Shown here: one piece after another, positions 4,506 to 18,012 of the stretch
Layout of the letters: each line of letters starts with the position of its first letter
Numbering within the stretch: position 1 is the stretch's first letter
Source of the DNA: Candidatus Peribacteria bacterium RIFCSPHIGHO2_02_FULL_49_16
GTDB lineage: Bacteria > Patescibacteriota > Gracilibacteria > Peribacterales > Peribacteraceae
Direction: 5' to 3'
DNA: 34,838 nucleotides
NCBI GenBank assembly: GCA_001788955.1
Contig: MFXT01000007.1
Span: forward strand, 1-34,838
Position numbers and translations under genes: made by a program
The notes under the pieces: generated by a model
Told to the model about the DNA's origin: nothing
Databases searched by the model: none
Seen by the model: the letters and a program-made list of their open reading frames with translations, nothing else

Positions 4506-5435
4506 ATGGCTCTGATGCCAGATCACAAGACCACAGAGGAATCCGAGAGGTTCCAAGTGCCAATCATCGGTCGCGGCGATGGCTACGATCTCGCTTGGGC
4601 AGCGTATGTTCAGGGCAAGAACTATAGCCGCATGTCTGATCTACTGAACGAAAAAAGACATACTATTAAGGATACCGATCAAAGCTATCGCACAATCAAT
4701 CACTGGAGCAGCTTAGGGTTGATCGAAGATGAACGCACAAATAATAGTTCGTGGAGAAAACTCAGTATGCTCGACCTCATATGGATACAAATTATTTCCA
4801 AATTACGTCAGTTTGGTTTTCCACTGGAAAAACTACTGGTAACACAAAAAGAACTTTTTGGGGGAAAACCAGATCGCTCTCCCTATAGATTTTTTGAATT
4901 TGCTATTTCTGAAGTATTTTTGAAGTTATGTCAATATCTTGTGGTATTACCCGATGGGAGAGCCGCTGTAATGTCAGAGGAACGGCTTCATACAACTATG
5001 AGTCTTTATTATCTTGATAATTTTATTTGTATCAGCCTGAATACCATTGTCTCAAATATATATAAGAATCATGACTTCTCGCCTGCACTCCAATACTTTG
5101 AAGTCTTGACTAAAGAAGAAGCAGATGTGCTTTTTCAAATGCGAAGCGGAAAATATGAAAGCGTAGGCGTAAAAATGAATAACGGTGAAATAGTCCTTAT
5201 TGAAGCGACGCAAACTATAGATGCTCAAAAACGACTGATTGATCTCCTGAAGGATGCTGAATATCAGGACATTCAATTAAAGACAGCCACTGGCAAAATT
5301 GTCTCAATCAAGCGCACGGTAAAGACCAAGCCTGCTTCCAAAGCTACGGAAAACCTCCGAGCCTCTTCTACAGAACCACTTCGATCATCGGACAAACCGA
5401 AGTCGAAGGCCGTTCGTTCCAATGCTCACGATTGA
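4506..5435 (+). CDS. MerR-like HTH protein of the integrase operon
   Basis: About 309 aa from the ATG at 4506; an in-frame ATG at 4464 lies before a palindrome-overlapped promoter and is less likely. Residues about 55-115 read as a MerR-type DNA-binding domain: YRTINHWSSLGLI as the wing turn, then WRKLSMLDLIWIQIISKLR and FGFPLEKL. The long C-terminal half (about 130-270) is unrecognised, and the tail is basic and low complexity (KTKPASKATENLRASS, KPKSKAVRSNAHD). It is the first gene of a tightly packed operon ending in a large serine recombinase. The next gene starts inside its last codons. It may therefore regulate integration or excision, or act as a recombination directionality factor, since some such factors are MerR-like. 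That role is inference. Confidence 0.65.
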   Translation: MALMPDHKTTEESERFQVPIIGRGDGYDLAWAAYVQGKNYSRMSDLLNEKRHTIKDTDQSYRTINHWSSLGLIEDERTNNSSWRKLSMLDLIWIQIISKLRQFGFPLEKLLVTQKELFGGKPDRSPYRFFEFAISEVFLKLCQYLVVLPDGRAAVMSEERLHTTMSLYYLDNFICISLNTIVSNIYKNHDFSPALQYFEVLTKEEADVLFQMRSGKYESVGVKMNNGEIVLIEATQTIDAQKRLIDLLKDAEYQDIQLKTATGKIVSIKRTVKTKPASKATENLRASSTEPLRSSDKPKSKAVRSNAHD

Positions 5436-5559
5436 ACAATGCAGAATCTATCTCAAAGACCTTCCATTATCGGACAAGCAAATCGAAGAACTCCGTGATG
5501 CGCTCTATGCCATCTCGCAAGCAGTTTTAGCTCCTCACTTCACTGACAATGACCAATAA
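5422..5559 (+). CDS. Small 45-aa protein of the integrase operon
   Basis: MLTIEQCRIYLKDLPLSDKQ starts a 45-residue acidic, helical protein that ends FTDNDQ. It overlaps the end of the MerR-like gene by 14 bases and the start of the next gene by 11 bases, so it sits in a coupled operon. Very similar short proteins (M-L-T-I-E-x-C-R-x-Y-L then LSDxQ) are, to my knowledge, common beside serine recombinases in CPR genomes. The function is unknown, perhaps as a partner of the recombinase or of the 183-aa protein. Confidence 0.7.
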   Translation: MLTIEQCRIYLKDLPLSDKQIEELRDALYAISQAVLAPHFTDNDQ

Positions 5560-6100
5560 CATCTCACCAGCACAGCTCGAAGCAAATCGAGAGAATGCCA
5601 AGCTCGGTGGCGTAAAGACAGAGCGTGGCAAAGCCTCTATACGCTTCAATGCACGGAAGCACGGAATCCTTTCTAACCTTATCTCGGACTATGAGAAAGG
5701 AGTTTACGAACACTATCTGAATCAGGTATTTGAGGAACTCCGACCTGAAACAGCTCTCGAAGAAATCCTTGTAGAACGTATCGCAATTTACTATCTTCGC
5801 CTGTATCGAGCGGGTAAGGCGGAGAAGGAATATATCTTGTCGCGGCTCAATCCTGGAGAGTTTGACTTAGATGCGGTCATGGAGAGTGATAAAGGGTACA
5901 AGCCCGTATTGAAGTTCGAGTACGTTGAACGTCTGTACGGTGTATATAATCGTTACGAGACGAGCATAGAGAACAGACTCTACAAAGCGATGCATGAATT
6001 GGAAAGGATTCAGCGTATGAGGAAGGGGGAGGTCATAACTGCACCGCTTGCTGTGGACGTGCAGCATGAAAATGGGTTTGTTTCGCAAAATGCCCAATGA
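5549..6100 (+). CDS. Recombinase-associated protein of the 'GGxKTxxGKxxxRxNAxKHG' type
   Basis: A 183-aa, highly charged helical protein. Its N-terminus carries the conserved signature NAKLGGVKTERGKASIRFNA followed by RKHGILS, seen in many small hypothetical proteins near phage and transposon genes in diverse bacteria. The rest is helical with Glu/Arg pairs and a likely coiled coil around residues 120-160 (VYNRYETSIENRLYKAMHEL). It overlaps its upstream neighbour by 11 bases and the recombinase by an ATGA overlap (6097-6100), so all three are translated together. The molecular role is unknown; DNA binding as a recombinase accessory is plausible from the basic conserved N-terminus. Confidence 0.7.
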   Translation: MTNNISPAQLEANRENAKLGGVKTERGKASIRFNARKHGILSNLISDYEKGVYEHYLNQVFEELRPETALEEILVERIAIYYLRLYRAGKAEKEYILSRLNPGEFDLDAVMESDKGYKPVLKFEYVERLYGVYNRYETSIENRLYKAMHELERIQRMRKGEVITAPLAVDVQHENGFVSQNAQ

Positions 6101-7695
6101 AGCTCCCCGCCGTCATCTATTGTCGAGTTTCCTCACCTCGTCAGGTAAAAGAAGGGCATGGGCTTGATGCTCAGGAATCGAGAGGAAAGGAGTACAGCAA
6201 GATGAAGGATTATGATCTAGAACGAGTCTTCAAAGACGAAGGCGTGTCAGGTGGATTACTTGACCGTCCGGGCATCCAAGAACTTCTTACCTTTCTCGAA
6301 GAAAGACCACTGTATGCCCCCCAGATCGTCGTTGTCGTGGACGACCTCTCACGATGGGCGAGAGACGTGATCGCTCACTTTGAGCTGAAGAAGGCTATTC
6401 ACTCCCGCAATGCGCGGTTGGAGTGCATCTCGCACAAGTTGGAAAATACTCCGACTGGTAGGTTCATAGAGACAGTCATCGCGGGATACTCGGAAATGTG
6501 GAGGGGCGAGAACAAGATCAAGGTCATCGCCAACATGAAGGCGAGACTTGAAAGAGGGTACTGGTGTTTCGATGTGCCACCGGGCTTCCGCTACGTCAAA
6601 GACCCTGCACATGGGAAAATCATCATCGCAGATGAACCAAATGCAAGTATTATCAAAGAAGCCCTTGAGGGCTTCGCCAGTGGTCGGCTGTTCGAACAGA
6701 CAGATGTCATGCATTTCTTGGAGTCCCGTAGCTTCTTCCATCGAAAGCAGCCGAAACGGGTCAATCTCGAACAGGTAAAACGCCTCCTGACCCGCATCCT
6801 GTATGCGGGGTACATCGAATATCCTCTATGGGGCATTACAAGGCGCAAGGCGCACCATCAGGGGTTTATCGACCTCGATACCTTCGAGCGGATTCAGGAG
6901 CGTCTCAGTGGCAAAGCAAAGGCTCCTCAAAGGAAGGATTTGAACAAGGATTTCCCGCTACGCGGGTTCGCTCTCTGTGCCTCTTGTCGAGAGTCGTACA
7001 CGGCCAGTTGGAGCACTGGCAGGAACGGGACATACGCGTACTACCGATGTCAGACCAAAGGCTGTTTGATGCACAACAAAAGCGTGAAGAAAAAGGACAT
7101 CGAAGATGACTTTGCGACTCTGCTGACGAAGATGAAACCGCAGCCGCAGATTTTGGCACTCACGAAAGCGATTGTGCTAGACGTGTGGAACACCGAGCAG
7201 GGCGGTGTGGAGCAGGTCAAAGAGAAGCGTCAGGAACGCGTGAAAGAACTCGATGAGAGCATCGAGAAACTCTGTGAGCGCGTCGAGAAGACAAACAGCG
7301 AGACGGTCATCAGCCGCTATGAGGCACGCATCGAAGACATGGAGCAGGAGCGACTGTCACTCGAAGCCAGCCTCAACAAACCCAAGACAGGCGGCATCAG
7401 ATTTGAAACCGCTACCGATCTCGTCTTCGATTTCATCAATGACCCCTCAAAACTGTGGCACAGCGACAATCTATACGAACAACGGCTCGTGCCGAAGCTC
7501 GTCTTCACTGAGCGTTTGCCGTATCGAAAGGGTGTGGGTTATGAAACCACGACTTTTTCGCTTCTGTTTGCGCTTTGCAAGGAAGCTGAAAGTGATAGTT
7601 CACGAGTGGTGGAGATGGCGGGAGTTGAACCCGCGTCCAATGTGTGTATACGGTGCTCGTACTGTCGTGTCCATTTCAGATCGCTTTTGCCTTAG
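6097..7695 (+). CDS. Large serine recombinase (integrase), 3' end inside ssrA
   Basis: A 532-aa site-specific recombinase. The N-terminal resolvase domain (about 1-150) begins AVIYCRVSSPRQ with the nucleophilic Ser at about residue 12 and continues with GLDAQ, VFKDEGVSG and VVVDDLSRWARD. A recombinase domain (about 170-290) follows, then a zinc ribbon with CASC...CQTKGC (about 300-330) and a long coiled coil (about 370-430). This is the standard layout of phage-type large serine integrases. From base 7607 on the frame reads the antisense strand of the tmRNA gene (EMAGVEPASN...), so the last ~30 residues come from the insertion site. It is co-translated with the 183-aa protein through an ATGA overlap. 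It very likely integrates and excises the surrounding element at ssrA. Confidence 0.93.
   Translation: MKLPAVIYCRVSSPRQVKEGHGLDAQESRGKEYSKMKDYDLERVFKDEGVSGGLLDRPGIQELLTFLEERPLYAPQIVVVVDDLSRWARDVIAHFELKKAIHSRNARLECISHKLENTPTGRFIETVIAGYSEMWRGENKIKVIANMKARLERGYWCFDVPPGFRYVKDPAHGKIIIADEPNASIIKEALEGFASGRLFEQTDVMHFLESRSFFHRKQPKRVNLEQVKRLLTRILYAGYIEYPLWGITRRKAHHQGFIDLDTFERIQERLSGKAKAPQRKDLNKDFPLRGFALCASCRESYTASWSTGRNGTYAYYRCQTKGCLMHNKSVKKKDIEDDFATLLTKMKPQPQILALTKAIVLDVWNTEQGGVEQVKEKRQERVKELDESIEKLCERVEKTNSETVISRYEARIEDMEQERLSLEASLNKPKTGGIRFETATDLVFDFINDPSKLWHSDNLYEQRLVPKLVFTERLPYRKGVGYETTTFSLLFALCKEAESDSSRVVEMAGVEPASNVCIRCSYCRVHFRSLLP
7607..7640. other. Probable attachment site at the tmRNA 3' end
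   Basis: The recombinase gene points into and ends within the T-arm and acceptor region of ssrA, a frequent target of integrative elements. The core should lie within roughly these bases, which include the T-loop sequence GTTCAA on the minus strand. The exact core cannot be set without the other attachment site or an empty relative. Confidence 0.45.
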
Positions 7696-8013
7696 AAGCG
7701 GACGAAGAAAGCAAAAGAGGATTGATGCTCAATGTCATCCCAGATCGCATCAACTGTGGGATCACCTCACGAATGACGCCCCATCCTCGTAGTGAGGATC
7801 GGAGGAGGAACGTGTCCGCGCAAAAGGCGGACTTATGCCACTGCAAGGGCAGGAGCAAATTCCGGAGTGCGGAAGTTTGCAAATGCGTCCTTGAAGATAG
7901 CGGGAACTTTTGCTGTTGCAATTGTTCGTTGTAACAGTGGGTATCGGGAACCGTTACCATCCCGAACAGAAGCAGACGCATACAGAATCACACTGTCGAA
8001 GCCTGTCATCCCC
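7607..8013 (-). ncRNA. ssrA: tmRNA (SsrA)
   Basis: The minus strand begins GGGGATGACAGGCTTCGACA at 8013, the classic tmRNA 5' end, and ends with GCGGGTTCAACTCCCGC (T-arm) plus CATCTCC, discriminator A and an encoded CCA. The two acceptor strands pair over seven bases (GGGGATG with CATCTCC). A tag reading frame runs to a TAA, followed directly by the hairpin GTCCGC...GCGGAC (helix 5 position). The predicted tag starts near ATAKVPAIF and ends APALAVA, about 28 residues if the resume codon is the first GCA of that stretch, long compared with the 10-15 residues common in bacteria. The hydrophobic C-terminus fits recognition by ClpXP-type proteases. The RNA rescues stalled ribosomes with SmpB. Its 3' end is the integration target of the neighbouring element. 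Confidence 0.95.
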
Positions 8014-8072
8014 ACGTAAAGTCGTTTTGCGACCACGTGGCACGACCAGTGGTGTGAACGAACGCCTAAGAG

Positions 8073-8078
8073 TACTAT
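8073..8078 (+). promoter_or_regulatory. -10 box of trhO, 8 bases before the ATG
   Basis: TACTAT is followed by 8 bases and then the ATG at 8087, so a transcript starting about 7 bases after the box would have almost no leader. The same arrangement recurs at rel, the metallophosphoesterase, the SLH gene, ribBA and the 137-aa membrane gene. Confidence 0.4.
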
Positions 8079-8086
8079 ACCATGCC

Positions 8087-8956
8087 ATGTATGTACTCTC
8101 TATTACCGCTTTCTATAAATTCATCGCGATCCAGCCGAAGGATTTGCCGATTATACAGGAAAAACTGATGAAATTTGGCAAAGAACGAGACATGCGGGGC
8201 TTGGTGCTTCTGGCGGAGGAAGGGATCAATGGGACGGTGTCTGGAAAATCGGAGTGTATTTGCGAATGGAAGGAACTCCTCGAAAAATATTTTGGAGAGA
8301 TCACATTCAAAGACAGTGAGGCGAATACTGTGATTTTTCCGCGATGGTTCGTGAAGATTCGCGAAGAGATCGTCAACCTCAAGAAGCCAGACGTGCGGCC
8401 GACGGGAAAGTATCATCATCTCTCCCCTGAACGGTGGGATCGGATGATGGAGGAAGATGACGTTCTTGTGATCGATCTGCGCAATGACTACGAAACAGAG
8501 ATCGGCACATTCGAGGGAGCGATGGATCTGAAAGTAAAAGAATTTCATGAGTTTCCAAGGCTCATGAAGCAGGCGAATCTGCCGAAAGACAAGAGGATTC
8601 TTTTGTACTGCACCGGCGGCATTCGTTGCGAGAAGGCGTCGCTCGAAATGGAAAAACAGGGATATGAGCACGTCTACCAACTCGACGGCGGAATCCTTGC
8701 GTATCTCAAAACATTCCCATACAGGAAATTTAAAGGGGAATGTTTTGTTTTTGATCATCGCGTTGCGGTTGATCAGGAACTGAAACCTTCAGAGCGCTTC
8801 CATGTTTGTCCTCATTGCGGTGATCCGGGGGACAGGGAAATCGTGTGTGCGAAATGTGAAAAGAATCAATTCATTTGCGCGAAGTGTTTTGATCATACGG
8901 AGCGCAGGTCGTGTTCAAAAAATTGCCGACACCATCTTGGTATCTTGGTAAAATGA
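8087..8956 (+). CDS. trhO: tRNA uridine(34) hydroxylase TrhO (rhodanese-like)
   Basis: A 289-aa member of the UPF0176/YceA family, which hydroxylates U34 of certain tRNAs on the path to 5-methoxyuridine. The N-terminal acylphosphatase-like part has GLVLLAEEGINGTVSG. The central rhodanese domain has VLVIDLRNDYETEIGTFEGA and the catalytic loop YCTGGIRCEKAS with the active Cys at about residue 182. A Cys-rich C-terminal segment (CPHCGDPGD, CAKCEKNQFICAKC) is typical of the family. The ATG at 8087 was chosen because homologues begin a few residues before AFYKF, and a -10-like TACTAT (8073-8078) lies just upstream, implying a leaderless or nearly leaderless mRNA. The tmRNA gene diverges from it. 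Confidence 0.92.
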   Translation: MYVLSITAFYKFIAIQPKDLPIIQEKLMKFGKERDMRGLVLLAEEGINGTVSGKSECICEWKELLEKYFGEITFKDSEANTVIFPRWFVKIREEIVNLKKPDVRPTGKYHHLSPERWDRMMEEDDVLVIDLRNDYETEIGTFEGAMDLKVKEFHEFPRLMKQANLPKDKRILLYCTGGIRCEKASLEMEKQGYEHVYQLDGGILAYLKTFPYRKFKGECFVFDHRVAVDQELKPSERFHVCPHCGDPGDREIVCAKCEKNQFICAKCFDHTERRSCSKNCRHHLGILVK

Positions 8957-11084: not shown

Positions 11085-11462
11085 CTATTTTACAAGAATT
11101 TTCATCAACCAGTGTACAAGGCCAAAAAGAAGAATAACCGCGATCCAGCCGATAAATCCGCCGGAAATATGCAAAGTGATGAGTGAGGGGTCGAGGAATT
11201 TGATGATCTCCACCACGATGCTTATCAGCAGTCCATTGATCAGAAAAATTGCAACGAGCGTGGCAAAGAGCCGCAGGGGGAGAGTAATGAGATAGAGAAG
11301 AGGATGGAGAAGTTTATGGGCGATTGTAAAGATGAGCCCCAAAAGAACGGTTGCCGGCATGCCGCCGGTTACTACGAAATACTGACCGAGGTGCTGTGAC
11401 ATAAACCACACGAAGATCGTGGTGAGAATGAAACGAAGGAGAATGCGAGTCAACGGGGACAT
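11085..11462 (-). CDS. Phage holin superfamily IV-like membrane protein
   Basis: A 125-aa protein with four hydrophobic helices (about 8-28, 36-58, 62-85, 98-120) and the motif pair GLIFTIAHKLLHPLLYLITL and LPLRLFATLVAIFLINGLL. That is the pattern of the DUF360/PF04020 'phage holin family' membrane proteins, which are widespread in bacterial chromosomes and usually not phage-related. It lies 6 bases downstream of ileS on the same strand and is probably in its transcript. Function unknown. Confidence 0.8.
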   Translation of the reverse strand: MSPLTRILLRFILTTIFVWFMSQHLGQYFVVTGGMPATVLLGLIFTIAHKLLHPLLYLITLPLRLFATLVAIFLINGLLISIVVEIIKFLDPSLITLHISGGFIGWIAVILLFGLVHWLMKILVK

Positions 11463-11468
11463 TGATAG

Positions 11469-14400
11469 TTATGAAGAGGGTGTTTTCATGTTTTCAAAAC
11501 GGATTGTAACATCTGTTTCCCCAACCTTCACCGTATGTTTTTCACCGCTGTTTTCTGCAAGGTGGGATCGGGTTTCCTCTGCTATGACGTCGCCAAATGA
11601 TTTCAAAAGTTCGTCGGCGCCATCGATGGAGAGGCGGATATGATCGGTGAAAGAGAGGCCGGATTCCTGCCGCAGTTTCTGTATGGTGCGAATGAGATCA
11701 CGCGCATATCCTTCCTGCCGCAATTCTGGCGTGAGTGTTGTGTCGATGGAGATCACGATGCCGCGAATGCCGGCGGTATTTTTCCCTTCTTTTCCTTTGT
11801 AGGTGATTTCCACTTCGTCGGGTGAAAGCTTTTCATCGAGAATGAGAATATTTCCGTCATCACAGATCTCAAAATCGCCTTCTTTTCCGGCAACGATGAT
11901 CTCTTGTATGCGGGATCCGAGTCGCGGGCCGACTTTCCGCGCATCCACAAGAGCAAGAGCGTTTGCGAGATCTTCGGGATGTTCGACGAGCGTCAGTTCT
12001 TTGACGTTCAGTTCATCGCGCAGGAGAGCAAAATCCTCTTTGGAAAAATTTTTTCTGGACTCCGGCGGGATGGCAAGACGCGCCATGCCAAGCGGTTGGC
12101 GAATCTTGATCTTTGCGTCTGAACGGACTTTCAGTCCCAGTGACGCTACAGAGCGCATGACGCGGTTCTTATCGAGGAGTATGGATTCATGGTCTGTCAG
12201 TTCGCGCGGCTCTGGCCAATTGGTCAAATGCACGGAACCGTTCTTCTCCTGTGAGAGGTTTGTGTAGATAGCTTCGGTGATAAATGGACAGAACGGTGCA
12301 AGCAGTTGTGATAATTGAATGAGACAATCGTAGAGTGTCTGCAGTCCTTCCTGTTGTTGCCGTTCGTTTCCTTCTTTTCCGGCAAAACGCCTGCGTGAAA
12401 GACGGATGTACCAGTTGGTGAGTGCATCAATCGTTTCATGAAGCTCATTGCATGTTGCAGAAAGATCATAGTGATCCAGTTGTTCCGTCATGCGATTGGT
12501 CAGATCCTGCAGCTTCGCGCGGATCCACTGATCAAGCGGATAAGATGAGGCGCTGTGCTTAAACGTCGGTTCAAATGCCGCCGCATTCGCGTACGTCACA
12601 AAAAAGCTGTAGGCGTTCCAGAGAGGAAGAAGCGTATGTTGAATAACCTCATGCACCGCCTGTTCGCTGAACCGCAGTGACTGTGCACGAACGACGGGAG
12701 AGGACATGAGCGCGAAGCGCAGGGCGTCCGCGCCTTGTCTCTCCATGAGTTCATTTGGGTCCGGATAATTCTTCAGACTCTTACTCATCTTCTTTCCGTC
12801 TTCTGCAAGGATTATTCCTCCACAAATGCAGTTCCAGAAAGCCGGTTTATCGAAGAGCGCTGTAGAGAGAACGATAAGTGTATAGAACCATCCGCGCGTT
12901 TGATCAAGATTCTCGGCGATGAAATCGGCAGGAAACCCGCGTGGGGCACTCCTTTCTGAAGAGAAGGATGAATATGAAAACGGATAATTTTCCTGTGAAT
13001 AGGGCATTGATCCACTCTCAAACCAGCAGTCGAATACTTCCGGCACGCGCCTGAATACTTTACCGTTGGGTTCTGTCCATGTGATGTCATCGACATTTTC
13101 CCGATGCAGATCCATCTGTGCTTTGCATGTGTGATCCCAGAAGTAAGCTTTGGGAGAAGCAAAATGTGCCATCGGATGCTCGACGATTTTTCCCGGTTCT
13201 TCCTGCGTAAAAAATTTCCGGACGTTGTGAAGCGGATCGCCATGACTTACGACGATGATATGTTCACCCGGGTGTTTTGGAAGAGTCTCGGTGAAGAATG
13301 CATCAATGCGTTCTTGCATATCTGTCCATGATTCCCACGGACTGGTCACATCTTCTCCTCGTGCGGAAGCCTTACGCAGTCTTCGAAATTGTTTTTCCTC
13401 ATCATGAAGCACGGGTTTCCCGTCGCATTCGTTGAATCGTGTTTCTCGCAGCCGCTCATCAATGATGATCTTTGCATCTGTTTCCTTGGCGATCATCTGT
13501 GCGGTTTGTTGGCAGCGTGCGAGAGGGGATGTGTAGATGACGCGAGGTTGCAGGTTTCCTGCCGATAAGAACGCGGCGGCGTTTTGTGCTTGTTGCTTCC
13601 CATGTTCCGTTAAATCTGTTCCCGGGCAAGAGCTCTGATACATCGTATTCACATTTCCTTCACTCTCTCCGTGTCGCAGCACAGTAACTTTTGTGAAGCG
13701 ATCCGTGCAGTATTGCATGAGTTCATCACGGCCGGTGATGACGACAGTCTCTTCTTCATCTTCCGTTCTCCAAATAGGGAGCGGTGTTCCCCAATATCTG
13801 TTTCGTGAGATTGCCCAATCTTTCGCGTTCGAAAGCCAAACGCCAAATCGTCCATCACGAATGTGCTCTGGAACCCATTGTGTCTTCTTGTTATTCGTCA
13901 GGAGTTTTTCTTTGATATTCTCGACGGTTACGAACCACGAACTCGTTGCGTAATTGAGAAGAGGGGAGTCGCAGCGCCAGCAGTGGGGGTAACTGTGTTT
14001 TACCTTTTCTGTACAAAAAATGTGATCATGTTTTTCAAGATGTTCTACTATTTTCTTGTCTGTCTTCGTCGGATCATCTTTCGGTTTTACATCGAGTCCT
14101 GCGAAGTCTGTCACCATTTCTGTGAAGCGACCTTCCATCGTCACGTGTTGGAGTAAAGGAAGGTCTTCCCCTCGATCTTTACTTTTGCCCTGCAAAGTTT
14201 CCTTTTCCCAAATATGATAGTCGTCAGCGCCAAATCCGGGAGCAATATGCACAATGCCCGTTCCCTCATCCGTTGTGACGAAATCTCCTTCGACAATGCG
14301 GAATGCAGCATCTCTGTACTGGTCAGCGAAATAGGGGAAGAGGGGTTTGTACGTGAGGCCAAGTAGATCGTTTGCTTCGATTGGTATTGGGTCACTGACA

Positions 14401-15329
14401 TAGTATTCTGTGATAGATGGGATATTGTCATTGTGATCTATTCGACCACTGCCAGCGTAAAATTTCTCTGCAAGTTGATTGTAGAATCGTTGTGAAGCAA
14501 TGTATGTGCCATCTAATTTTGGATTCTCATAGTTTTTATACTCGAATTTCAAGTAAGTGATCGTGGGGTTAATTGCCAAAAATACATTTCCAGGCAATGT
14601 CCACGGCGTCGTCGTCCACGCTAAAAGAAATGTTTCCATTTCTCCCCTCCCTGAGGGAGGGGACACAGGGGAGGGGGGGTCAGCAGACTGCAGCTGAAAC
14701 TTCACCGTCACTCCCATATCTGTCACTTCCTTATATCCCAGCGTGACTTCAAAATTACTTAAGGGGGTGACGCATCGGGGGCACACATGCATCGGCTTAT
14801 ATCCTTCTGTGATCAATTTCTTTTCCCAAAGGCGCCCGAATACCCACCAGATACTCTCCATGTACTCCGGGTCCATTGTTCGGTAATCGTTATCCATGTC
14901 AACCCATCGACCCATACGCTCGACCGTAGTACGCCACTGCTTTGTGTATCGTTGTACCGATCCACGACACAGTTCGTTAAACCATCGGATGCCTTTTTCT
15001 TCGATTTCCTGCTTTCCTTTAATATTGTGCTCTTTTTCGATGAGATTTTCGATGGGAAGACCATGACAGTCCCACCCGAAATGACGTTCCACATATTTTC
15101 CGCGCATGGTTTGATAACGTGGAATGACGTCTTTCACCGTTCCTGCAAGAAGATGCCCGTAGTGGGGGAGCCCTGTCGCAAACGGCGGCCCGTCATAAAA
15201 GCTGAATTGCTGCGCGTTCAGTCGCTGTTTCAAGCTTTGCCGGAATGTGTCATTTTCGTTCCAATACTCGAGGATTCCGCGTTCCAGAGCGGAAAAAGAT
15301 TGATGAGGAGAGACAGGATCAAAGGACAT
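11469..15329 (-). CDS. ileS: Isoleucyl-tRNA synthetase (type 2) with inserted histidine phosphatase domain
   Basis: A 1286-aa enzyme that charges tRNA-Ile. The HIGH motif is PHYGHLLAG (about residue 55), with FGWDCHGLPIE and the CP1 editing domain with WTTTPWTLPGN after it. RNRYWGTPLPIW comes next, then VPEVFDCWFESGSMPY and KKMSKS near 843, followed by the anticodon domain. The HYGH form and the FGWDCHGLPIE context are those of the eukaryote-like type 2 enzymes. Between DELMQYC and DLHRENVDD (about 545-735) a complete histidine phosphatase domain is inserted: LRHGES, SPLARCQQTA, DERLRETRF and VVSHGD, with all four catalytic positions present. A second oddity is a short in-frame GC-palindrome insertion at about 216-231. 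The ATG at 15329 fits the family N-terminus (MSFDPVSPHQ); a TTG at 15365 is an alternative. Confidence 0.95.
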   Translation of the reverse strand: MSFDPVSPHQSFSALERGILEYWNENDTFRQSLKQRLNAQQFSFYDGPPFATGLPHYGHLLAGTVKDVIPRYQTMRGKYVERHFGWDCHGLPIENLIEKEHNIKGKQEIEEKGIRWFNELCRGSVQRYTKQWRTTVERMGRWVDMDNDYRTMDPEYMESIWWVFGRLWEKKLITEGYKPMHVCPRCVTPLSNFEVTLGYKEVTDMGVTVKFQLQSADPPSPVSPPSGRGEMETFLLAWTTTPWTLPGNVFLAINPTITYLKFEYKNYENPKLDGTYIASQRFYNQLAEKFYAGSGRIDHNDNIPSITEYYVSDPIPIEANDLLGLTYKPLFPYFADQYRDAAFRIVEGDFVTTDEGTGIVHIAPGFGADDYHIWEKETLQGKSKDRGEDLPLLQHVTMEGRFTEMVTDFAGLDVKPKDDPTKTDKKIVEHLEKHDHIFCTEKVKHSYPHCWRCDSPLLNYATSSWFVTVENIKEKLLTNNKKTQWVPEHIRDGRFGVWLSNAKDWAISRNRYWGTPLPIWRTEDEEETVVITGRDELMQYCTDRFTKVTVLRHGESEGNVNTMYQSSCPGTDLTEHGKQQAQNAAAFLSAGNLQPRVIYTSPLARCQQTAQMIAKETDAKIIIDERLRETRFNECDGKPVLHDEEKQFRRLRKASARGEDVTSPWESWTDMQERIDAFFTETLPKHPGEHIIVVSHGDPLHNVRKFFTQEEPGKIVEHPMAHFASPKAYFWDHTCKAQMDLHRENVDDITWTEPNGKVFRRVPEVFDCWFESGSMPYSQENYPFSYSSFSSERSAPRGFPADFIAENLDQTRGWFYTLIVLSTALFDKPAFWNCICGGIILAEDGKKMSKSLKNYPDPNELMERQGADALRFALMSSPVVRAQSLRFSEQAVHEVIQHTLLPLWNAYSFFVTYANAAAFEPTFKHSASSYPLDQWIRAKLQDLTNRMTEQLDHYDLSATCNELHETIDALTNWYIRLSRRRFAGKEGNERQQQEGLQTLYDCLIQLSQLLAPFCPFITEAIYTNLSQEKNGSVHLTNWPEPRELTDHESILLDKNRVMRSVASLGLKVRSDAKIKIRQPLGMARLAIPPESRKNFSKEDFALLRDELNVKELTLVEHPEDLANALALVDARKVGPRLGSRIQEIIVAGKEGDFEICDDGNILILDEKLSPDEVEITYKGKEGKNTAGIRGIVISIDTTLTPELRQEGYARDLIRTIQKLRQESGLSFTDHIRLSIDGADELLKSFGDVIAEETRSHLAENSGEKHTVKVGETDVTIRFENMKTPSS
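14641..14680. repeat. GC-palindromic repeat inserted in frame within ileS
   Basis: CCCCTCCC-TGA-GGGAGGGG, then ACAC and AGGGGAGGG, has the same build as the core of the DUF559-unit left end (9066-9098) and the copy at 27501-27535. Read in the ileS frame it codes for the Pro/Ser/Gly-rich DPPSPVSPPSGRGEM between a beta strand (VKFQLQS) and the conserved WTTTPWTLPGN of the editing domain. The frame is kept. Confidence 0.75.
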
Positions 15330-15407
15330 GGGAGTGTGAGGAGTTACTACGTTACAATAACTCAATCAATAACCCAATAACTCGTCTTTCCCTTCAGAAA
15401 GCCATTC

Positions 15408-15424: not shown

Positions 15425-17365
15425 ATGAGCCCCATCGAAGAGCGTTTCCGGGAGTCACTTGCGTATCTTGATGCGAATGATCGTCATGAAGTGGAGAAAG
15501 CACTTGAAACTGTCAAAATTTGGCATGAAGGACAAATGCGGAAATCCGGAGAGCCATATGTTGATCATCCGATTGCAGCGGCGAATTATTTGGCAAAGTT
15601 GGAATGCGGGAAAAACACACTTATTGCCGGACTTTGCCATGATACGGTTGAAGATGAATGTGCGACGCTCGAAGAGATTGAACGGGCATTTGGGACGGAG
15701 GTCATGAAGCTTGTGGATGCCGTTACAAAGCTGACAAAGTTACAGTATGAAGGCAGGCGATCGCAGCGTCAGATTGCGTCGCTTCGCAAAATGCTTCTCG
15801 CGGCGAGCGAAGATTTGCGCGTCATCATGATCAAGCTTGCCGACCGACTGCATAATGTTGAGACGCTCGAAGTGTTTTCTCTCGAAAAGCAGAAGCGCAT
15901 TGCGAGTGAGACACTGGATATCTATGTGCCTTTTGCGCGGCTGATGGGTCTGTGGTGGATGAAGAGATGTTTCGAAGAGCGTTGCTTTCCTCTTGCATAT
16001 GAAGATCGGGCAATACAGTGGCAGAGGCATGTCAATGAACATCGTGAACGTCTGCTTACTGCTCGCAGGGAATTCTGTCATTCACTTCATTCTTTTGTCT
16101 CCGTGCCTATTGATACGACGCTCACCCGGATGACCGATTATGAACTCTTCCTTCGATGTGATTCTGACAGTGAAATTCTTGAAGAAAGTTCTCTTCTCGA
16201 TTCCATTTCGATTGTTCCAAAAGATGCGCATGCCTCTTTAGAGATCTGTTACGCGATTCTTGCTGATATTCATCAGCATGTGCCGTTCAAGTCGGCGTCA
16301 TTTCGGGATTGTATCGGCCAGCCGCTCACGAATGGATATCAGGCGCTCCATACGACGGTGTTTCTGTCCCATAACCATCAGGTGCGATTGCGTATTCAAA
16401 CGAAATCGATGCTTGAATATGCAGAGATGCGCAAATATTCATCATGGATGAAGGACAAGGAAAACAATCTCTATCGTGCACTCAACAGTTTGCATCAGCG
16501 TTTTATCCCCCATGATCAGTACATGATGGAACTGAAAAATGATGTGCTCAAAGAAAAAGTATCCGTCTTCACCCCTGCAGGAGAAATTGTCACATTGCCG
16601 TCGGGATCGAATGGCATCGATCTTGCATTTGCGCTGAATCCCGATTTCTTTGCGCGACTTACGGGCATGCGTGTCAATGGTCAGGAACAAGAAGTGACAC
16701 ATCCGTTATATGACGGAAATACCGTGGAACTTATTTTGTCATCACAAGATATGCCCGAAGAATTTCGCGCACTCTGGAGGCAGCGCGCATCCACAGGAGA
16801 TGCACGTACGGCTTTGCAGGAAAAAGCGCAGGATCTTCCGCAGAATGAACTCCTTGCAGAAGGACGTCTGCTGCTTACCAACGAATGTCAGAAGCATCGT
16901 TTGCCTGCGTGGTTGTTATTTCATGCGCAATGCATGCAACGTGCACTCTGTGAGCAGAGTCATGTTGAAAATTTTTCTGTTCTTCTTCGAGATATCGGCG
17001 CGGGGTATCGTCCTGTAAAAGATGTCATGTATACCTATGATCGAATTCTAAAACATCCTCCAACATGGGCGACTCGTTTCCTGGCACTCCTCATCGTACG
17101 TCCGCATGTACTGGTGCTGCATGCGCGATCCACAATGCTTCAACTCGACATTTCCTCCGATGATCGTCCGGGCATCGTGCATGAAATCACACGATGTTTT
17201 GCCGATCGCAATATCAACATGTCCAGCTTCACCGCGTATTCTCTTCCAAAAAAGGGCGGACTCTATAAGATTTGGCTTTCGATGGACGATTTTGAGCAGT
17301 TCAGTGATCTCTTCGATGCTTTACTGCAAGTGCCGGGGGTGAAGAAGGTATCGAGAGTGCAATAG
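15425..17365 (+). CDS. Long RelA/SpoT homologue with intact HD hydrolase and degenerate synthetase
   Basis: A 646-aa protein with the domain order of long RSH enzymes. The HD hydrolase domain (about 20-180) keeps YVDHPIAAANYLAKL, LCHDTVEDE and IKLADRLHN. The synthetase-like domain (about 230-345) keeps NGYQALHTTVF, but the basic substrate-binding motif (R-x-K-S...S-I..K) is not recognisable and the catalytic E-x-Q-I-R-T is RLRIQT, with Glu replaced by Arg. The TGS domain (about 375-435) begins KVSVFTPAGEIVTLP. The C-terminal ACT domain (about 570-646) has DRPGIVHEITRCFADRNINM. By family knowledge this points to (p)ppGpp hydrolysis without synthesis. Start chosen at ATG 15425 behind an extended -10 and at the expected N-terminus; the frame stays open further upstream over antisense ileS. 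Confidence 0.9.
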   Translation: MSPIEERFRESLAYLDANDRHEVEKALETVKIWHEGQMRKSGEPYVDHPIAAANYLAKLECGKNTLIAGLCHDTVEDECATLEEIERAFGTEVMKLVDAVTKLTKLQYEGRRSQRQIASLRKMLLAASEDLRVIMIKLADRLHNVETLEVFSLEKQKRIASETLDIYVPFARLMGLWWMKRCFEERCFPLAYEDRAIQWQRHVNEHRERLLTARREFCHSLHSFVSVPIDTTLTRMTDYELFLRCDSDSEILEESSLLDSISIVPKDAHASLEICYAILADIHQHVPFKSASFRDCIGQPLTNGYQALHTTVFLSHNHQVRLRIQTKSMLEYAEMRKYSSWMKDKENNLYRALNSLHQRFIPHDQYMMELKNDVLKEKVSVFTPAGEIVTLPSGSNGIDLAFALNPDFFARLTGMRVNGQEQEVTHPLYDGNTVELILSSQDMPEEFRALWRQRASTGDARTALQEKAQDLPQNELLAEGRLLLTNECQKHRLPAWLLFHAQCMQRALCEQSHVENFSVLLRDIGAGYRPVKDVMYTYDRILKHPPTWATRFLALLIVRPHVLVLHARSTMLQLDISSDDRPGIVHEITRCFADRNINMSSFTAYSLPKKGGLYKIWLSMDDFEQFSDLFDALLQVPGVKKVSRVQ

Positions 17366-17379
17366 AGGAAGATCTGCAT

Positions 17380-18012
17380 ATGGGGTTGATGATTGTCAAA
17401 AAAAAGTTGAGAATTGAAACGATGGATTGTCATTTTACCGCGACTGCTTTCGTCATTGATATACGAAAAGAGAAACCGCAAAGAACATTATTTTTATGGC
17501 ACAAACGATTACAACGATGGATGCCTCCCGGCGGACACATGGAACCGAATGAACTTCCCGAAGAAACGGCAAAACGAGAATGCGAAGAAGAAACCGGACT
17601 CGATGTTGATATTATTGGTGACGCCCAAGCGAATGTGTTTGTGAATACGGAGAATGAAGGACGCATGCTGAAAAAACCATTCACGATGCTTCTCGAAAAT
17701 ATTCCCGCAAGCGAAGAGCGAGGCGAGACCGCGCATCAACATATGGATTTCGTATTCCTTGCGCGACCGATCAATATCGATCAGGTTTTGAATATGAATG
17801 AACATGAGGCAGAAGAGATGAAATGGTTTACAAAGCAAGATATCGAAAATCTTCCTGCACGAGAAATATATGACAATGTTCGCATGTATGCTCTGGAGAT
17901 TTTCACACTCCAGAGCTACATGCTATTTACGTCTAATACGAGTATCTCCGGCCATGCAAAGAGTCGCGCTCGTGCGAGTGATTCTCCTACGCCGCGAGTG
18001 ATGGCAAGCTGA
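17380..18012 (+). CDS. Nudix hydrolase
   Basis: A 210-aa protein with a perfect Nudix box, GGHMEPNELPEETAKRECEE then ETGLDV (about residues 50-73), preceded by WMPPG. Nudix enzymes hydrolyse nucleoside diphosphate-linked compounds, including oxidised nucleotides; the substrate here cannot be told. GAGGAAG lies upstream of the ATG at 17380, and an inner Met (17422) is an alternative start. The core ends near residue 175. The last ~30 residues (SNTSISGHAKSRARASDSPT...) are read across the end of the convergent metallophosphoesterase gene, a 97-base overlap, and are probably not conserved. A perfect 9-base hairpin at 17890-17916 marks the convergence. Confidence 0.9.
   Translation: MGLMIVKKKLRIETMDCHFTATAFVIDIRKEKPQRTLFLWHKRLQRWMPPGGHMEPNELPEETAKRECEEETGLDVDIIGDAQANVFVNTENEGRMLKKPFTMLLENIPASEERGETAHQHMDFVFLARPINIDQVLNMNEHEAEEMKWFTKQDIENLPAREIYDNVRMYALEIFTLQSYMLFTSNTSISGHAKSRARASDSPTPRVMAS
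17890..17916. terminator. Hairpin at the Nudix / metallophosphoesterase convergence
   Basis: GCTCTGGAG, 9-base loop, CTCCAGAGC: a perfect 9-base stem placed exactly where the minus-strand gene ends (its stop starts at 17916). There is no T-run on either side, so it is a poor intrinsic terminator by itself. It could still block convergent polymerases or protect the 3' end. Confidence 0.4.

Follow-up and report, generated by a model that had tools for sequence, protein, structure and literature searches.

Why should an essential aminoacyl-tRNA synthetase carry a second, seemingly complete enzyme inside its catalytic core? The question is raised by a stretch of 34,838 nt from a Candidatus Peribacteria genome (contig MFXT01000007.1; hereafter the window), whose ileS gene encodes an isoleucyl-tRNA synthetase (IleRS) with an inserted histidine phosphatase (HP) domain of branch 1 (PF00300, His_Phos_1).

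The synthetase and its inserted domain

The ileS gene and the residues discussed below lie as follows, with invariance given for the copies that share the insertion site of the window (site A1):

11469 to 15365, minus strand: ileS, isoleucyl-tRNA synthetase with inserted HP, 1298 aa, matching TIGR00392
15153 to 15167, minus strand: PHYGH, the class I HIGH signature (residues 67-71)
13668 to 13676, minus strand: RHG, comprising R564, H565 (the expected phosphohistidine nucleophile) and G566; R and H invariant in 92 of 92 A1 copies
13515 to 13517, minus strand: R617 of SPLARC, phosphate pocket; invariant in the same 92
13443 to 13445, minus strand: E641 of RLRE, expected general acid/base; invariant in the same 92
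13242 to 13244, minus strand: H708 of VVSHGD, phosphate pocket; invariant in the same 92
13164 to 13700, minus strand: the whole inserted branch-1 HP, residues ~556-734; it occupies site A1, the first CP2 hairpin loop
12777 to 12791, minus strand: KMSKS signature of the synthetase (residues 859-863)

The window protein scores 852.3 bits against the TIGR00392 ileS model (cut-off 621.4) and is the one match listed above that cut-off for its own genome; as the sole IleRS it is predicted to charge tRNA-Ile with isoleucine. Its start codon is TTG, with an ATG at residue 13 (nt 15329). In addition to the two signatures listed above, WTTTPWTLPG and GTGIVHIAPGFGADD, both editing-domain motifs, are retained and a C-terminal DUF5915 is present (Pfam); by this full set of motifs the window IleRS is predicted to be a functional synthetase. 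The Pfam scan found no GNAT domain in it, and against the NCBIfam model ileS_w_GNAT (NF040702) it reaches 269.8 bits for a cut-off of 1999, which places it outside that family. The same genome encodes an ordinary valyl-tRNA synthetase (ValRS) of 908 aa.

In the Pfam scan the PF00133 catalytic domain is split in two by the PF00300 match (residues 561-727, 121.6 bits, cut-off 21.7, E 4.2e-35). From RYWG (first residue 523) to DCWF (first residue 779) the distance is 256 residues, versus 63 in an HP-less relative (L121), which gives an insert of ~193 aa. An earlier note, made from the letters of the window, had counted about 190 extra residues between RYWG and the DCW segment of the catalytic core and read them as a full phosphoglycerate-mutase-like phosphatase. 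Both statements agree with our data; all four motifs (LRHGES, SPLARC, RLRE and VVSHGD) are present and the domain is confidently modelled. Of the span it proposed, 13200-13700, the end was correct and the start fell short, the domain being slightly longer. GC and GC3 of the HP segment equal those of the remainder of ileS.

A model of the HP domain alone has a mean pLDDT of 93.3, and its best fold matches are phosphoglycerate mutases (dPGM), PhoE and PspA. For IleRS residues 15-1105 the model reaches pLDDT 85.7 and pTM 0.81, with yeast IleRS-tRNA, P. megaterium IleRS and T. thermophilus IleRS as the best PDB folds, and these scores and folds suggest a synthetase core that closes around the insert. 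The closest solved sequences to the HP domain are PspA (4ij5, E 4.8e-35) and PhoE (1h2e, 8.4e-31). None of the NCBIfam phosphatase equivalog cut-offs is reached by the window protein, and the values for TIGR01258 (47 bits, cut-off 81.7) and NF038349 (95 bits, cut-off 225) leave it outside the mutase families. We predict that the insert is a folded, catalytically competent HP of the PhoE/PspA/CobC type, placed in a CP2 loop at the surface of the synthetase.

Distribution, insertion sites and descent

We searched 59 relatives for HP. Throughout the same-family relatives the domain sits within a long ileS frame, and all 34 family genomes with an ileS that reaches across the site have it, a count that leaves out G001 (no ileS found) and G006 (ileS cut off by the end of its contig, short of the site). 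The closest named relatives are Candidatus Peribacteria/Peregrinibacteria, the placing foreseen in the earlier note, which had also asked whether relatives might all lack the insertion or carry it with lost RHG or SHGD residues; neither was the case, the insert being found in every readable family genome and its tetrad intact throughout the A1 copies. An assembly artefact or a recent insertion is ruled out by this distribution and the equal GC, and a relic by the intact tetrad. Phage HPs are only distant (~30% identity), and a phage origin was likewise rejected.

Beyond the family, a profile spanning RYWG, HP and DCWF matched over its full length in 21 of the 143 genomes surveyed across the phylum, distributed over 15 family codes, while the other genomes of this set gave split matches from HP-less IleRS or from separate HP genes. 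Named carriers include Adlerbacteria, Kaiserbacteria, Taylorbacteria and Liptonbacteria. Among the best 80 loci of the contig scan, those from outside Patescibacteria comprised short HP genes only, with no fusion. One locus titled Kiritimatiellales (L129) groups within Peribacteria in the tree, and its MAG has probably been mislabelled. This distribution marks the HP-IleRS fusion as an old trait, spread widely through Patescibacteria. No HP whatever was found in 32 of 193 genomes of the class, which shows the HP function to be dispensable in the group.

Insertion sites were read from the flanks and classified by motif pattern, leaving 7 IleRS copies unplaced. Site A1 lies in the first CP2 loop, flanked by the GSxxEL strand and DLHRP, and holds 92 distinct copies including that of the window. 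Site A2, after DLHKHxxD and before RIPEV, holds 45, among them the second copy of most Peribacteria and copies of family f9. Two copies lie at site A3 (between the WFESG strand and ADFIAEG) and nine at site B (~78 residues past KMSKS, before the anticodon domain). Many Peribacteria carry two HPs (A1 and A2); the window has A1 only. An IleRS of 1672 aa (L128:4378-9393) has three HP domains. In ValRS, HP occupies the same CP2 hairpin in 12 copies, with 1-3 per protein, and in one case (L267) an HP lies at an A3-like place. Nearly all large-frame HP hosts are IleRS or ValRS, the others being one UvrB and one 477-aa dehydrogenase-like fusion; a PF00300 search made regardless of host showed no HP in LeuRS or other large housekeeping proteins. 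At L106:3677-5107 (G123) HP is joined C-terminally to a hydroxyacid dehydrogenase NAD-binding domain, and the UvrB (L068:3661-7035, G042) has an inserted serine hydrolase domain as well as the inserted HP.

Other domains were also seen within IleRS of the class. Three IleRSs (L061, L279 and L280) have a NUDIX domain in the CP1 region plus an HP in each, the NUDIX box being intact in two of the three (L061 and L280). A GNAT acetyltransferase is inserted between WFESG and KMSKS in two others (L278:1602-6020 and L059:3838-8190), and residues 387-466 of the G041 IleRS (L277:1832-5758) form a Y1 transposase-like domain with an intact HUH motif (MPNHIHLVV).

The catalytic tetrad is intact in 92/92 copies at A1, 44/45 at A2, 9/9 at B, 1/2 at A3 and 9/12 in the ValRS CP2 hairpin, as well as in the UvrB HP and the 7 unplaced IleRS copies. 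The few losses all fall in extra copies, mostly of ValRS; in a ValRS with three HP copies (L069:1000-5298), one copy lost the E and H. An alignment of 50 diverse A1 copies has just 13 invariant columns; these include all five catalytic residues, in keeping with the statement of the earlier note that every catalytic position is present. Two close pairs gave dN/dS of 0.03 and 0.08 for HP versus 0.13 and 0.12 for the remaining ileS, an estimate of selection that comes from these two pairs, as in more distant ones dS is saturated and HP changes faster than the core. To judge from these values the HP domain is under strong purifying selection.

HP presence is scattered over the IleRS core tree, so that many gains or losses are needed. 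In the HP tree (163 columns, a quick search, many weak forks) the Peribacteria A1 copies form one clade, as do the ValRS HPs of the class; A2 copies fall together with f9 and a free HP from G043, a genome whose IleRS lost or never had the domain. The HP in the UvrB of G042 and the HP in the IleRS of that genome are sisters. A free HP of a Ca. Paceibacterota MAG (L184) is nested within the inserted HPs, and its N-terminus, ESRGNTYYVLRHGE, resembles the inserted KSGNTYFVMRHGE of its sister and, more generally, the sequence flanking the inserted HPs. This gene (5299-5913, 204 aa) ends 3 nt upstream of the start of an HP-less ileS (5917-8952), an arrangement in which HP could serve beside IleRS rather than inside it. 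A further free HP of the same clade (L165) lies between argS and a NUDIX gene, both named from sequence. Taken together, the free HPs of L184 and G043 suggest that the activity can work unlinked. A single A1 clade that includes the UvrB HP and the free HPs of L184 and L165 is not rejected (p-AU 0.68). One old A1 insertion with losses, and later insertions at other places, is a possible history on these trees, and spread via transfer of whole ileS genes is possible too.

Candidate roles of the phosphatase

Three genes around ileS provide context:

11085 to 11462, minus strand: small membrane protein directly downstream of ileS (PF04020 at 27.2 bits, just below cut-off)
15425 to 17365, plus strand: Rel/SpoT-type protein with HD, RelA_SpoT, TGS and ACT domains (Pfam), divergent from ileS
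17380 to 18012, plus strand: NUDIX hydrolase gene beside rel (PF00293, E 1.9e-15)

The PF04020-like gene adjoins ileS in most family genomes. A Rel/SpoT homologue of >40% identity was found near ileS in ~8 family genomes, with weaker ones in more. PADLOC gave no match, and a defence-system link was rejected. In the genome of the window PGK is present, and neither enolase nor a cofactor-independent phosphoglycerate mutase was found in it; its glycolysis seems to stop at 3-phosphoglycerate. The IleRS-borne HP is the only PF00300 match of this genome.

Histidine phosphatases work through a phosphohistidine intermediate, with a phosphate pocket formed by the RH, R and H residues and a Glu as general acid. 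By analogy with the family, H565 would attack the phosphate of the substrate while R564, R617 and H708 hold it, E641 would protonate the leaving group, and water would then release phosphate from phospho-H565. The reading that we favour, and hold to be somewhat probable, is that the window protein combines a functional synthetase with an active phosphomonoesterase nested inside it, the latter being retained for the reaction it catalyses. HP would then be a tethered, self-contained enzyme that might act on a small phosphomonoester, and its activity would be useful near Ile/Val charging rather than through a geometric effect on aminoacylation. Although speculative, our first-ranked guess for the substrate is a nucleotide-type by-product, a choice suggested by the pairing with NUDIX.

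How closely the phosphatase is tied to its host is the point at which the alternatives diverge. One can imagine that something which IleRS makes, or a state through which its reaction passes, is the target of HP, which would in this way monitor or tune the charging of isoleucine. Candidates are a phosphorylated residue in the synthetase itself, an alarmone, a phosphate at the tRNA end, and AMP or an ApnA such as Ap4A formed as a by-product; the earlier note had suggested coupling to charging, with aminoacyl-AMP or an alarmone-like product as examples. That HP is almost confined to IleRS and ValRS, and was not seen in LeuRS, speaks for a link of this kind, and the HP gene just upstream of an HP-less ileS, the free HP between argS and NUDIX and the three IleRSs that combine NUDIX with HP all point the same way. 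The divergent Rel/SpoT neighbour makes an alarmone link thinkable, but its proximity to ileS is limited to roughly one family genome in four and could reflect shared descent. HP also occupies four different positions in IleRS, which argues against one needed geometry; unrelated GNAT and HUH domains have been inserted as well, and the IleRS of many relatives lacks HP, which some of these genomes are missing altogether. On balance we think such coupling to the charging reaction unlikely. The inserted NUDIX, GNAT and HUH domains of IleRS and the serine hydrolase of UvrB favour instead a view in which CP2 and other loops are simply permissive, HP keeping the job of a free enzyme and gaining nothing from IleRS. 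That the HPs of UvrB and IleRS in G042 are sisters, as if a movable piece had been copied, fits this view, as does the position of the window HP as the only one of its genome. Against it stand the repeated, independent insertion into IleRS and ValRS and the lack of HP in the other large proteins covered by the host-independent search, and we regard it as possible, if rather improbable.

Might the domain be retained without catalysis, or for a different catalysis? The fused HP domain of mycobacterial MutT1 has no demonstrated activity and is reported to be accessory and non-catalytic (PMC11784022), so an intact tetrad is no proof of catalysis, and HP could in principle serve IleRS as a rigid spacer or a tRNA-binding surface. 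The invariance of the tetrad at A1, the confinement of the few losses seen elsewhere to extra copies, and the existence of free-standing HPs derived from the clade make a purely structural role very unlikely in our view. A stand-in phosphoglycerate mutase is the least credible proposal, and we consider it extremely improbable. It would suit a genome with PGK, a single HP and no cofactor-independent mutase found, but with no enolase found either there would be no use for 2-phosphoglycerate; moreover, the NCBIfam mutase models score far below cut-off and the closest solved sequences are phosphatases.

Relation to known systems

Extra domains on aminoacyl-tRNA synthetases are already known. In the open-access literature searched we found no paper describing the HP-IleRS fusion, nor any description of an essential synthetase whose core has taken up, at more than one position and in each of two paralogues, a complete and conserved metabolic enzyme. 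The fusion is an example from nature of one gene nested within another in reduced genomes, with one protein that is predicted, and probably able, to perform two chemical jobs, and it offers a direct test of whether branched-chain charging and phosphate chemistry are linked in the candidate phyla radiation. It is tempting to go further and see in the IleRS and ValRS of Patescibacteria a platform in which small house-cleaning enzymes (HP, NUDIX, GNAT) have repeatedly been nested because branched-chain charging calls for their activity on the spot, the whole forming a multi-enzyme machine for charging and by-product clearing; we put this forward as a doubtful idea.

Among known proteins, the type 2 IleRSs (eukaryote-like, DUF5915-bearing, e.g. 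P. megaterium IleRS2 and the yeast enzyme) share with the window protein the same core, editing motifs and C-terminal DUF5915, whereas its CP2 hairpin is longer by the ~193 residues of the insert and its CP2 knuckle cysteines are replaced. The NCBIfam family ileS_w_GNAT likewise has an enzyme domain (an N-acetyltransferase) within IleRS, although both domain and family differ. Mycobacterial MutT1, a NUDIX fused to HP, shows the same pairing as the three NUDIX-bearing IleRSs but has no synthetase part. Finally, the PhoE/PspA (phosphoserine phosphatase 1)/CobC branch has the same fold and the same RHG..R..E..H tetrad as the insert; its members are free enzymes, whereas the HP of the window lies inside a synthetase.
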